Shown: positions 48,585 to 53,230 of the stretch, piece after piece
Layout: each line of letters starts with the position of its first letter
Position numbering within the stretch: the first letter of the stretch is position 1
Assembly (NCBI GenBank): GCA_018056425.1
Contig: JAGPFR010000006.1
Span: 24,643-88,642 of the forward strand
Source: Lachnospiraceae bacterium
Lineage (GTDB): Bacteria; Bacillota; Clostridia; Lachnospirales; Lachnospiraceae
Direction: 5' to 3'
DNA length: 64,000 nucleotides
Notes under the pieces: generated by a model
The model's input: the letters and a program-made list of their open reading frames with translations, nothing else
Database searches by the model: none
What the model was told of the DNA's origin: nothing
Position numbers and translations under genes: made by a program

Positions 48585-48694
48585 AAGTTCTGATTTCCAA
48601 TTTAGTCACAAATTTCTGATCATTAAACTTTTATAAGCTCCGTTATATTGATAAAATAATGTAAATATAGTTCCATTATCTTTGGAGGGTTATT

Positions 48695-50629
48695 ATGGGG
48701 TTGATCAAGACTAATGATAATTGTATCGGATGCAACAAATGTATCAGAGCCTGCAGCTGTTTCGGTGCCAATGTCGCTGCCGAGAAAGACAGGGGCAATG
48801 TTATTGAAGTAGATCCCAAGAAGTGCATCGCATGCGGTGCATGTATAGATGCGTGCGAACATAAAGCAAGAGAATATGAAGATGATGTTGAGAAATTCTT
48901 CGCAGATCTTCAGAAAGGCCAGAAGATTTCGGTTATCATCGCGCCTGCTTTTCTTGCAAATTATCCCAGAGATTACGAGAAGTATCTTGGCATGCTCAAA
49001 AAGCTCGGCGTCAATCGTTTTATCAGTGTTTCATTCGGTGCCGATATCACAACCTGGGCATATATCAAATATATAACCGAAAATAAATTCTATGGCGGTA
49101 TTTCCCAGCCGTGTCCCGCAGTTGTAGGGTATATCGAAAAATATCTTCCCGAACTGCTTCCCAAACTTATGCCTGTTCACAGTCCCATGATGTGTGCGGC
49201 TATTTATTCCAAGAAATACTTGGGCATTACCGATAAATTGGCCTTTATCAGCCCTTGTATAGCCAAAAAGAATGAGATAGACGATCCGAACAATCAGGGA
49301 TTTATCTCATATAATCTTACTTTCTCCAAACTCGTTGCATATCTTAAGACCCATCCTGTAAGCGGTGCTCAGCCTTTCACAGATGAGATTGAATACGGAC
49401 TCGGATCTATTTATCCCATGCCCGGCGGTCTTAAAGAAAATGTATACTGGCTTCTCGGAGAGGATGCTCTTGTCCGCCAGATGGAGGGCGAGCATCATAT
49501 GTACGAGTATCTGCGCCGTAATAAGGACCGCATTAAAGGCGGCAAGACCAAGTACCTCTTTATCGATGCCCTCAACTGTACGAACGGTTGTCTGTACGGA
49601 ACAGGTGTAGATAACCGCAAGACCATGGATGAAGAAGTATTTGAGACTATCCAGAAGGTTAAGGCTGACAGCAAGAATGAATCCAGGAAGTCTGCATGGG
49701 GCAGAAAGCTTACTCCGGATAAGAGACTTGCAGCGCTTAATAAGCAATTCAGCGATCTTAAACTCAGCGATTTTATAAGGAAATATACCGACAAAAGTAA
49801 AGAATGTTCATACAGGATTCCGTCCGAGGCAGAGATCAATCAGATATTCACAAAGATGCGCAAGAATACCGAGGAGAAGCGCCATATTGATTGTAACTGC
49901 TGCGGATATGACACTTGCCGTGATATGGCGATCGCTATAGCAAACGGATTCAGTCATCGTCATAATTGTGTCCATTATATTAAGGACAGAGCATATGAAG
50001 AGAAGGATAAAGCATTGGCACTTACAGAGCAGGTTCAGAATTCACACGATGAACTTGTTCAAAAGAAAGATTCCCTTACTTCCGGGATTAACGAAAACTT
50101 CAATAATCTGCTTAACTCCATCGGACAGATCCAGAAGATCAGTGAAGATAATGCTCAGCAAACCGGTAAGATTTCCGAATACATGGCAGAGGTTGATAAA
50201 TTTGCGGATAATCTCAGAACAGTGCTTTCAACCGTAGAAGGTTATCTGGATAAGCTTGAATCCAATAATGCGGATGTCATTGCCATTTCCAACCAGACCA
50301 ATTTGCTTGCACTGAATGCTTCGATTGAGGCAGCAAGAGCGGGAGAGGCAGGAAGAGGATTTGCGGTTGTAGCGGATGAGATCAAGAATCTTGCCGAGAA
50401 TTCAAATGTTACGGCAAACGATTCCAATAAGAACAATCAGGACATAAAAGAGACAATAACTAAACTGATAGAAGAATCCGACAGACTTGCTCAGATTGTA
50501 AAGAATGTAAACTCCAGGGCCGAAAACCTTGTTGCATCATCGGAAGAAACAGCAACATCCATAAATATGATGACTGCAGTAACCGAAGATGTGGAAGATT
50601 CTTTAAAACAGCTTCTTGATTCGTTTTAA
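48695..50629 (+). CDS. ferredoxin / H-cluster domain / FeS / methyl-accepting chemotaxis fusion
   Basis: This 644-residue soluble protein joins four modules. (1) Two [4Fe-4S] ferredoxin motifs: Cys10, 13, 16, 20 and Cys44, 47, 50, 54. (2) A [FeFe]-hydrogenase H-cluster domain (about 75-320). L1 reads SQPCPAVV (Cys140), where TSCCP is usual, so the proton-relay Cys is Pro; L2 reads SPCIAKKNE (Cys188); L3 reads LNCTNGC (Cys295, Cys299). All four cluster ligands remain. (3) A small FeS domain with CNCCGYDTC from residue 400. (4) An MCP signalling hairpin: [16 protein letters not shown] near 540. It lacks membrane segments and looks like a cytosolic redox or H2 sensor for chemotaxis, related to sensory (group C) hydrogenases. 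TTGGAGGG is the ribosome site. Confidence 0.9.
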
Positions 50630-50644
50630 TCAGGTATATTAATA

Positions 50645-50675
50645 AGAAAAATCCGCTATATATGCGGATTTTTCT
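50645..50675. terminator. bidirectional terminator
   Basis: AGAAAAATCCGC, TATATAT loop, GCGGATTTTTCT, with T on the plus side and A upstream. It serves the sensor gene (+) and the convergent membrane-protein gene (-). Confidence 0.88.
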
Positions 50676-50687
50676 TTTTGTTAATTA

Positions 50688-51890
50688 TCAAATACCATAA
50701 TTACTTACAGATATCATGATCTTGTAATCGTAAAGATCTGTTTCATTTAAATAGATAAAAATGCCATGATCCTTCTGAGATATATAATCATTTATATTAT
50801 GTTCTCCATCCCTGTATCTAAGGATCATTTTCTCCAGAATGCCGTCCGGCAAAGTGTTTTGTCCGTTTAACCCGTTTACCAGATCATAAATAACACTTAG
50901 ATCATCTTCAAAATTCATTTGTCTTGTGATCGTCATTGAATCGTGATAGATCTCATGATCAAGGCTGAGTTCATACTCTAATCCGATACCGGAAGCAGAA
51001 TTGTCGTTATCGGCCCGGTAAAACCTGACACTTTTGGGTTCGTAGGAATAACCCAGATCCCTTTCGTATCCGTATGAACTTAAGAATGCTTCGTCATCTG
51101 CAATCGCATCCGGAAGCAATTCACTGTAGATCGCATAATTGGTCTTACCGTTATTCATCAGTAAGATCGCAACCAACGCATATATTGCACATTTCAAAAA
51201 CCAGAAAAGAAGTCCGGAGAAAATACCGGTGCTGTAATAGTTTTGTTCGGGATCGTATTTAAAATATGAGGATGGAAGCTTAAAGTCCTCATCTTGTGTT
51301 TTCTTTTCGTTATAACCGGTAAAATATGATCCGCTTTCATGAATCTGTTCGGATTCCTTACAATCTGTAAGAACTTTTATGATCTTAAAGCTGTTTTTGT
51401 CTATCAGATTATCGATATGTTCGATCTTTGAAGCATATCTGCCATGAATCCACCTTTCGGTTTTTTCACCGGAGAATCTTATGAGTCTGTGCGTCTGAAC
51501 ACGAACTCTGTATTTGATAAAGTAGAATGTCCTGTTTTCTTTAACAAAAACCTTGGTTCTTCCAATCGGTGAGAGAACAAAATACAAAAGAACGGATATT
51601 AAGCAAACTGTTTCCAAAACCAAACCCACGGTGGGGATGGAAAAGTTGATATATTTAATATACAGGTATTTTTCCTGATATATAAAGAAAAGACCGGGGA
51701 TCAAAAAGACTACAATGATCAGGTCAAGAAAGAAGAAGATCGCGAACTTTCTGATAAATTCTATTATCCTGTATTTTGCACTGTTTTCGTCAGGAAAATA
51801 GTACTCCCTTACAGGAACCGCATTTTCGGATTTTTCTTTATTCGGATTAACATATACTGTTTTTTCTTTTCCGAAGTATACAGAATCCAT
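50688..51890 (-). CDS. membrane protein of unknown function, 400 residues
   Basis: I do not recognise this protein. It has two close hydrophobic segments (about 47-70 and 84-107) after an N-terminal soluble stretch, a long soluble middle (about 110-225) with many basic and aromatic residues, a third segment (about 226-246), and an outer or second soluble C-terminal part rich in Tyr, Asp and Asn. AAAGGA before the ATG is the ribosome site. It is alone on this strand, between the H-cluster sensor and the his operon. The A/T-rich DNA and lack of known relatives suggest an accessory gene. Confidence 0.75.
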   Translation of the reverse strand: MDSVYFGKEKTVYVNPNKEKSENAVPVREYYFPDENSAKYRIIEFIRKFAIFFFLDLIIVVFLIPGLFFIYQEKYLYIKYINFSIPTVGLVLETVCLISVLLYFVLSPIGRTKVFVKENRTFYFIKYRVRVQTHRLIRFSGEKTERWIHGRYASKIEHIDNLIDKNSFKIIKVLTDCKESEQIHESGSYFTGYNEKKTQDEDFKLPSSYFKYDPEQNYYSTGIFSGLLFWFLKCAIYALVAILLMNNGKTNYAIYSELLPDAIADDEAFLSSYGYERDLGYSYEPKSVRFYRADNDNSASGIGLEYELSLDHEIYHDSMTITRQMNFEDDLSVIYDLVNGLNGQNTLPDGILEKMILRYRDGEHNINDYISQKDHGIFIYLNETDLYDYKIMISVSNYGI

Positions 51891-51968: not shown

Positions 51969-51997
51969 TTGACATATAGTAAAACGGTCTGTATAAT
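51969..51997 (+). promoter_or_regulatory. consensus promoter of the his operon
   Basis: TTGACA (51969-51974), exactly 17 bp, TATAAT (51992-51997). It is the most perfect promoter in the window and drives hisZ-hisG-hisD-hisB-hisIE. A strong promoter like this is usually held down by a repressor or a leader. Confidence 0.85.
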
Positions 51998-52099: not shown

Positions 52100-53230
52100 A
52101 TGAGTGATTTCAATAATAACTTACTTCATACTCCCGACGGTGTAAGGGATATCTACGGAAAAGAATATGACAATATCAAGTTTGTCAGAAAGACCATCTC
52201 CGATGTGATCTCGTCATACGGATATTCGGATATCCAGACTCCTTCATTTGAGTATTTCGATGTCTTTTCCAAAGAAGTCGGAACGATTCCTTCAAGGGAA
52301 CTTTATAAGTTCTTTGATAAGGATAATGAGACACTTGCGCTTCGTCCGGATTTTACGCCTTCGATCGCAAGATGTGCCGCCAAGTATTTCATGGATGATG
52401 ACAGAACTTTGAGATTTTCCTATATAGGCTCTACATTCCAGAATATTTCTTCGTTACAGGGCAAGTATTCCGAAATAACTCAGGAAGGCGCCGAACTTAT
52501 AGGAGACGGAAGCGTTCAGGCCGATGCAGAGATGGTATCACTTCTTATTGAAAGCCTTCTTAAGACCGGTCTTGAAAATTTCAGGGTATCTATCGGAGAA
52601 GTTGATTATTTTAAGGGACTTTGCAGTGAAGCAAAGCTTTCCATTGATGAAGAAAGAGATTTAAGAGATCTTATTTCTTCCAAGAACCCCATTGCGGCAT
52701 CGGACCTTCTCGGAAGATGCGATATAAGCGATGAGATGAGAGATAAGCTCCTCAGGATCACAGATACATTCGCCGATCATTCCATGCTTTCAGAGCTTGC
52801 AACATCTGCAGGAAATGATATTTCCAAGAATGCGATCGAAAGACTGTGCAAACTCTTTGAACTCCTTAAGATCCGCGGATATGAAAAGTATGTTTCATTC
52901 GATCTCGGAATGCTCTCCAAGTACCAGTATTACACCGGAATAGTATTCAAAGCCTTTGCTCTCGGAGCAGGTTCTCCAATAGCAATGGGCGGAAGATACG
53001 ATCAGCTCCTGTCTTATTTTGGCAAAAATGCAGCCGCAGTCGGATTTGTTATTCTTCCCGATGAAGTTGAAAAGCTTCTTGAAAGACAGGGATTTTCATT
53101 TCCGGATGCCTCGAGCGTTTGTGAGATCTTCTATAAAGATGGCGACGCAGCATCTTATGAGGAGGCAGTGAAAAAGGCCGCAGATATCAGAGGTAAGGGC
53201 GGAAGAGCCGCCGTTTGTGCACAGAAGTGA
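52100..53230 (+). CDS. hisZ: ATP phosphoribosyltransferase regulatory subunit
   Basis: The 376-residue paralogue of histidyl-tRNA synthetase has LLHTPDGVRDIYG, TPSFEYFDVF, LRPDFTPSIAR, and YYTGIVFKAFALG then MGGRYDQLL, but lacks the class II tRNA anticodon domain. HisZ is needed by the short form of HisG, which follows, to give activity and histidine feedback. It opens the his operon, after the promoter at 51969. The ribosome site is weak (AGTGAG). Confidence 0.93.
   Translation: MSDFNNNLLHTPDGVRDIYGKEYDNIKFVRKTISDVISSYGYSDIQTPSFEYFDVFSKEVGTIPSRELYKFFDKDNETLALRPDFTPSIARCAAKYFMDDDRTLRFSYIGSTFQNISSLQGKYSEITQEGAELIGDGSVQADAEMVSLLIESLLKTGLENFRVSIGEVDYFKGLCSEAKLSIDEERDLRDLISSKNPIAASDLLGRCDISDEMRDKLLRITDTFADHSMLSELATSAGNDISKNAIERLCKLFELLKIRGYEKYVSFDLGMLSKYQYYTGIVFKAFALGAGSPIAMGGRYDQLLSYFGKNAAAVGFVILPDEVEKLLERQGFSFPDASSVCEIFYKDGDAASYEEAVKKAADIRGKGGRAAVCAQK

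Follow-up and report, generated by a model that had tools for sequence, protein, structure and literature searches.

The receptor gene and its surroundings

The window, which is the whole 64-kb stretch of DNA analysed here, contains a gene for a putative chemoreceptor in which an [FeFe]-hydrogenase H domain is joined to an MCP signalling hairpin (Table 1). The gene is flanked by recU on one side and on the other by a convergent ORF (400 aa, 50688-51890) for which no Pfam family was found. Other neighbours with Pfam calls are an RNA pseudouridylate synthase and a histidyl-tRNA-synthetase-like (HisZ-like) protein at 52100, and no che gene was found by Pfam among the neighbouring ORFs, as an earlier note on this DNA had stated. 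Terminator-like sites, one of which lies 3' of the receptor gene, were observed about as often in the 64-kb stretch as expected by chance (2 found by the consensus scan and 2.2 expected from shuffles). A perfect TTGACA-17-TATAAT promoter-like site was noticed at 51969-51997, before the HisZ-like gene, and the genes 3' of the latter resemble histidine biosynthesis genes by eye.

Two further genomes of this genus contain orthologues of the receptor with 91% identity, and this identity, together with the low dN/dS described below, rules out the ORF as a chance or artefactual frame. At another locus of the genus (L037, G016:C117) the orthologue occupies two overlapping frames, as from a frameshift or an assembly error.

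Table 1. Features of the receptor gene, in window coordinates
Feature	Coordinates	Strand	Basis
CDS of the H-domain/MCP fusion receptor, 644 aa	48695..50629	+	one open frame, translation, Pfam
RBS-like GGAGGG, 5 bases 5' of ATG	48684..48689	+	direct sequence reading
Two N-terminal [4Fe-4S] motifs (C10, C13, C16, C20; C44, C47, C50, C54)	48707..48871	+	Pfam Fer4 families
H domain, residues 77-302, cluster Cys 140, 188, 295, 299	48923..49600	+	PF02906, 108.3 bits; Foldseek
Pro139 (equivalent to CpI relay Cys299) and ligand Cys140, motif ISQPCP	49109..49114	+	alignments, pocket table
C-terminal FeS domain Cx2Cx4Cx16C (C400, C403, C408, C425)	49886..49972	+	PF04060
Helical MCP signalling hairpin, residues ~430-644 (start inferred)	49982..50626	+	PF00015; model helix 426-643
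MCP tip motif, residues 545-556	within 49982..50626	+	motif positions
Terminator-like hairpin, 13 pairs, 3' of the gene	50644..50676	+	consensus scan

Domain architecture and structure model

Pfam detected Fer4_10 (residues 5-54) and Fer4 (37-59; 33.9 bits, cutoff 21.1) at the N-terminus, followed by Fe_hyd_lg_C (77-302; cutoff 22.1), the FeS family PF04060 (398-426), which passes narrowly with 24.4 bits at a cutoff of 23, and MCPsignal (PF00015; 528-640; 87.3 bits, cutoff 34.6). A PAS domain was not found by Pfam, and no transmembrane stretch is evident, the highest 19-residue Kyte-Doolittle mean being 0.9. The soluble architecture proposed in the earlier note, with two ferredoxin clusters, an H domain, a third FeS domain and an MCP hairpin, agrees with these calls, and its positions for the four H-cluster ligands and for the proline at the relay position were confirmed. 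None of the four ligands (Cys140, 188, 295 and 299) varies, either among 22 aligned rows or among 47 full-length ones, the receptor included in each, and the eight N-terminal cluster cysteines and the four of the C-terminal FeS domain are likewise invariant in the 22 rows.

An AlphaFold2 model built from 47 sequences has a mean pLDDT of 81.3 and a pTM of 0.66; in it the hairpin appears as a single long helix with its turn unresolved. The best 50 Foldseek matches listed for this model are [FeFe] hydrogenases, with 8a6t_A as the best of them (E 5.2e-17; TM-score 0.47 by query length). The CpI residue numbers used here were assigned by motif and are approximate for F417 and G418.

Class of the H domain

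The pocket table places S186 at M353, L293 at M497 and Pro139 at C299. The proline at C299 and the leucine at M497 set the receptor apart from the catalytic groups A and B, and its scores with the catalytic-family profiles are low (140.9 of 450 bits for TIGR04105 and 86.5 of 405.95 bits for TIGR02512). Group C2 of HydDB is entitled 'chemotactic (putative)' and covers [FeFe] hydrogenases possibly acting via MCPs, for which H2 sensing is proposed (PMC5037454). The receptor possesses both an H domain with the four H-cluster cysteines and an MCP domain in the same chain, while the genomic HydEFG set for H-cluster supply was not found over cutoff in the genus. On its architecture the receptor is C2-like, a description that carries no formal group placement. 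It also has the features of group D (M2e), namely the lack of a PAS domain, a hydroxyl residue (S186) at M353 and the Cx2Cx4Cx16C motif; TamHydS, an enzyme of group D, is reported to have Ser at M353 and Leu at M497, and the same paper gives the Cx2Cx4Cx16C motif for groups C and D (PMC8163306). The membership of group C suggested in the earlier note is unsure, given the TamHydS-type Ser/Leu pair and the lack of a PAS domain by Pfam.

The earlier note had also regarded the loss of the relay cysteine as fitting a sensor with slow turnover. This argument is weak because proline is reported at the relay position in about 10% of the sensory sequences of HydDB, and introducing Cys at this position of TmHydS is reported to lower its activity (PMC10055695). 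Sensors with a CC motif that keep the relay cysteine were observed at two loci (L100 and L101), which lie far off the receptor clade on the gene tree (branches 7.5 and 2.1); L101, the one of the two that was scanned, contains a PAS domain.

Probable Che-type output

The receptor has the two marks of an MCP chemoreceptor: its signalling tip is conserved, and partners with CheW domains are encoded in the genome. No variation was seen across 47 rows at the tip residues N536, L538, N541, E545, R548, G550, G553 and F556, and the one methylation-like site, ASSEETAT at 614, fits what we take to be the methylation consensus. The earlier note had proposed a search of the genome for CheA and CheW, and CheW-domain matches were found in 31/31 genomes of the genus. 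In the source genome of the window, a CheW-sized and a CheA-sized frame lie side by side on contig C76 and a CheV-sized frame is present on C40; all three match the CheW domain and are named from frame length and order. In most genomes the final part of the CheW match of the CheA-sized frame extends across stop codons, which was taken as an overrun of the profile past the end of the gene.

Because the tip is invariant and CheW domains are present across the genus, it is likely, judging by sequence, that the receptor controls CheA. The Che-type output proposed in the earlier note is likely on the same grounds, with a putative role in taxis. Whatever its input, the hairpin might instead serve a CheA-type pathway other than taxis, or a scaffold, as could be suspected from the lack of a che gene beside the receptor gene and from the same-clade H domains of the genus that feed GGDEF-EAL or histidine-kinase outputs. 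We regard such a role as improbable, given the invariant tip and the frames of CheW, CheA and CheV size in the source genome, which contain CheW domains.

Search for the H-cluster maturases

None of HydE, HydF and HydG was found over its curated cutoff by profile search in the genus (0/31 genomes for each), of which 10/31 have at least 90% completeness and at most 5% contamination. The source genome is 90.8% complete in 84 contigs, and two of the negative assemblies are 98-99% complete in 9-10 contigs. Sub-cutoff HydG matches in three genomes (G003, G018 and G019) were rejected as ThiH (509-512 bits, cutoff 380), and the sub-cutoff HydF matches listed cover the first profile half alone, which is the GTPase part. 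In relatives the same profiles score above 500 bits for HydF and above 900 bits for HydG.

An ordinary H-cluster in a true H2 sensor would require that HydEFG was missed through assembly gaps or through divergence beyond the profiles. Fragmentation of the source genome and the modest number of near-complete assemblies leave some room for this, but the zero count for each of three families, the two nearly complete assemblies, the GTPase-only nature of the listed HydF matches and the high scores in relatives make it very improbable. The earlier note had stated beforehand that a genome without HydEFG would refute its proposal, and the proposed sensing of H2 by an H-cluster in this organism is accordingly not supported. 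This negative result falls short of a full refutation in view of the conserved pocket and of the catalytic-looking hydrogenase retained by the genus. In vitro, HydG is reported to be indispensable, with zero activity of CpI in its absence (PMC3457958). A few species with [FeFe] hydrogenase genes and no maturases are also reported (PMC3226654), as are some hydrogenase-bearing eukaryotes without maturases, for which activity without them is claimed (PMC9161772).

Hydrogenase-type protein of the genus

Three H-domain proteins were found in the source genome, namely the MCP receptor, a GGDEF-EAL form and a hydrogenase-type protein. The last passes TIGR04105 (542.9 bits, cutoff 450), and three others scanned in the genus score 553-578 bits. 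Intact residues at 13/13 active-site positions, C299 and M497 included, were observed in 25/25 copies from 25/31 genomes, down to 34% identity; two of these copies are cut (G000 and G017), four at 34-35% identity were left unclassified, and a cut copy of G021 was left out. G003, G004, G020, G022 and G030 have no hydrogenase-type copy among the matches listed. The dN/dS of the protein is 0.012-0.044 (9/11 pairs with finite dS). C299 is described as a proton relay and not as a ligand (PMC10055695), and its retention therefore suggests, from sequence, that the hydrogenase-type protein is catalytic.

In G002 the receptor gene is located about 290 bases behind the hydrogenase-type gene on the same strand, and the same pair is found in G007, G014 and G017. 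No alternative maturase was recognised beside the hydrogenase-type gene in three neighbourhoods (G001, G009 and G029), where most ORFs were judged by eye and three were scanned; the scanned neighbours are a CHASE2-cyclase (G001, G029) and a Bax1-I protein (G001). In G001 and G029, we noticed that the gene immediately 5' of the hydrogenase-type gene is that of the CHASE2-cyclase, and an unscanned ORF with a similar start takes this place in G002; the ORFs of this upstream set are L230 9493-11316, L232 8712-10523 and L116 4515-6326.

These observations bear on a possible second route, in which the genus matures its group-B-type hydrogenase and the receptor without HydE, HydF and HydG, so that the receptor is a true H2 sensor that steers by H2. 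The TIGR04105 scores, the intact active sites, the low dN/dS of the protein, the paired genes in four genomes and the maturase-less species and eukaryotes in the literature (PMC3226654, PMC9161772) are in keeping with it. It has to contend with the zero in vitro activation without HydG (PMC3457958) and with the three neighbourhoods, viewed mostly by eye, in which no candidate maturase was recognised. We consider this route quite possible, if short of probable, and a HydEFG-free H-cluster is the close rival of the Fe-S-only reading given below. The fuller claim, that functional H-clusters arise in the genus without the three maturases and that a cytoplasmic chemoreceptor for H2 employs one, seems to us somewhat doubtful; if true, the genus would be a parallel among bacteria to those anaerobic eukaryotes for which hydrogenases without maturases have been reported. 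Lachnospiraceae bacterium P6A3, whose record is not marked as a MAG, provides a cultured-strain genome within the genus and has a receptor orthologue with 91% identity.

Relatives across the family and their maturase status

Among 80 named loci, the MCP tip motif was found by text pattern in 75/82 H-domain ORFs. Within the genus, all or part of the MCP form was found in at least 25/31 genomes; among the matches listed, G003, G004, G006, G018, G019 and G028 show none. At four loci (L144; L154, of strain AD3010; L174; and L191) the orthologue is clustered with hydE, hydG and hydF, the HydE of L191 being called by phmmer only. At L150, the MCP form precedes hydG and then, after other ORFs, a hydF that is cut by the contig end. 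Orthologues thus stand beside hydE-hydG-hydF at 4/80 loci, or beside maturase genes at 5/80 counting L150, which is a lower bound because many other loci have short flanks. The receptor lineage is therefore tied to H-cluster assembly.

In a family sample of 220 genomes, 46 have a same-clade H domain with any output (E <= 1e-60) and 17/46 lack HydF; in the 31 of these that are at least 95% complete, HydF is missing in 12/31. HydF was not significantly commoner with the sensor clade (29/46) than without it (95/174; Fisher p=0.32). These family counts (46, 17, 29/46 and 95/174) were typed by hand from the result tables. Outside the genus, HydG was over cutoff in 0/15 of the sensor genomes that lack HydF, against 6/6 HydF-positive controls. 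That HydF had been missed through the scoring of at most 8 candidates per genome was rejected, as rescoring of all candidates gave 0/20 with controls 2/2; the 20 rescored HydF-less genomes held 13/15 of the sensor genomes outside the genus, G046 and G094 being left out. Two HydF searches gave an identical 31 positives in the 60 genomes common to both.

On the sensor gene tree (67 rows), HydF status changes 16 times by parsimony, 13 of the changes being forced by starred branches, and the HydF labels cluster somewhat (2/500 shuffles as low). The tree is a gene tree from a quick search with long branches flagged, on which transfer is indistinguishable from maturase loss, and it leaves out five cut or short loci (L061, L067, L070, L041 and L027) and ORFs below 430 aa.

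As a separate observation, 81/220 genomes of the family sample match the ferredoxin-plus-H-domain part of the query (E <= 1e-8) and have no HydF, some of them possibly with ferredoxin-only matches. Seven of these (G089, G156, G161, G178, G190, G201 and G204) have frames of the size of PAS-type sensors.

Selection and pocket conservation

The H domain of the receptor is under strong purifying selection, with a dN/dS of 0.023-0.055 (12/13 genus pairs with finite dS); many of the dS values are above 1 and rough. At fifteen pocket positions, the members of the close clade with maturases and those without them have identical residues; variation at the S232, Q325 and G418-like positions is found in both sets. 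C299, M353, M497 and Q325 of CpI are replaced throughout the close clade regardless of HydF in the genome. A recently decayed receptor was ruled out by the low dN/dS and by the lack of pocket drift in maturase-less genomes. In far clade members (L085, L088 and L099) several pocket residues are lost and the four H-cluster cysteines are kept; the Lys358 position is changed in L088 and L099.

Proposed function of the receptor

We tentatively favour the reading that the protein is a soluble, CheA-coupled Fe-S redox receptor which belongs to an H2-sensor lineage and probably lacks the diiron site in this genus. Regarding cluster content, sensed signal, signalling direction and coupling to CheA, we infer the following. 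The [FeFe]-hydrogenase H domain, together with its three accessory [4Fe-4S] sites, would form the input module, and the MCP hairpin would be the output, controlling CheA through CheW. The receptor would have descended from an H2-sensor lineage, and in this genus its H domain most likely holds the [4Fe-4S] cubane only, because the known H-cluster route was not found there. It may read the cytoplasmic redox or ferredoxin poise: electrons would enter via the N-terminal clusters, the H-domain and C-terminal clusters would switch state in response, and this change would travel down the helix into the hairpin.

This Fe-S-only reading is preferred because of the domain architecture, because HydE, HydF and HydG were not found over cutoff in any of the 31 genomes of the genus and HydG is reported to be indispensable in vitro (PMC3457958), and because same-clade H domains persist without HydF, and without HydG over cutoff, elsewhere in the family. 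The low dN/dS of the H domain together with the replacement of C299, M353, M497 and Q325 regardless of HydF, the repeated changes of HydF status on the sensor tree, and the dropping of group C2 candidates in the validation checks of a genome survey of acetogenic Clostridium (PMC9431212) also argue for it. On the other hand, hydEGF adjoins the gene in relatives whose pocket residues are the same, no drift of the pocket is seen in genomes without maturases, and 25/25 intact hydrogenase-type copies would be odd if no H-cluster were made. The H2-sensor proposal of the earlier note is thus supported in part: the architecture, the soluble nature and descent from a lineage linked to H-cluster assembly are supported, and H2 sensing through an H-cluster in this organism is not supported in the form proposed. 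Either the genus may use an undescribed H-cluster route, or the receptor and the hydrogenase-type proteins may use [4Fe-4S] clusters otherwise.

Fermentation in the gut and rumen uses H2 as a central currency, and measuring H2 is the assumed task of the putative sensory [FeFe] hydrogenases. If H-domain proteins work without a diiron site, the scoring of such genes as H2 sensors or producers in gut surveys would be undercut, and surveys that equate H-domain genes with H2 metabolism may be affected by the HydF-less genomes. Otherwise, H-clusters would be made by an undescribed route in a genus that keeps both the receptor and a catalytic-looking hydrogenase.

Other outputs of related H domains

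Fusions of the same-clade H domain with GGDEF and EAL were noticed in the source genome (L117 7986-10589, contig C19) and at L083, L088 and L099, and fusions with a HisKA-HATPase-receiver module at L039 (1501-4569), L084 (also with Hpt) and L090. Adjacent divergent pairs of H-domain genes are found at L200 (5980-7965 and 8009-9961) and L092 (2182-4107 and 4195-6162), the second copies of which have about 35-40% identity to the receptor. The table of classes C1-C3 in HydDB holds no c-di-GMP output for [FeFe] enzymes (PMC5037454), and no report of c-di-GMP-linked [FeFe] H domains was recognised among the titles and abstracts listed by a search of the open-licence literature.

Comparison with known systems

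Among solved chains, the best sequence match to the receptor hairpin is the cytoplasmic hairpin of the MCP in PDB 3g67/3g6b (E 2.8e-14), a chain of 213 residues which, unlike the receptor, has no H domain. The residue of TamHydS at C299 is presumably Ala. This group D (M2e) enzyme (PMC8163306, PMC13104023) resembles the receptor in having Ser at M353, Leu at M497, the Cx2Cx4Cx16C motif and no PAS domain, and differs from it in that C299 is changed to another residue and that no MCP output is reported in the available text of the two papers. TmHydS of Thermotoga maritima (group C; PMC10055695, PMC8163306) shares the two N-terminal clusters, the C-terminal FeS motif and an H domain in which C299, M353 and M497 are changed. 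Unlike the receptor, it contains a PAS domain and has Ala, Gly and Ser at C299, M353 and M497, respectively, and its H-cluster is reported as demonstrated after artificial maturation.

The closest system by description is group C2 of HydDB (PMC5037454), with which the receptor shares an H domain linked to MCPs and for which H2 sensing is proposed; in this comparison of descriptions rather than of sequences, the receptor is distinguished by Ser/Leu at M353/M497 and by a genus in which no HydEFG was found. In the part of the open-licence literature covered, no test of a chemoreceptor-form [FeFe] sensor was seen. Because the putative group C2 of HydDB already covers [FeFe] hydrogenases linked to MCPs, the fusion is of a known kind; its setting in a genus in which no HydEFG was found provides a clean test of whether HydEFG is always needed.
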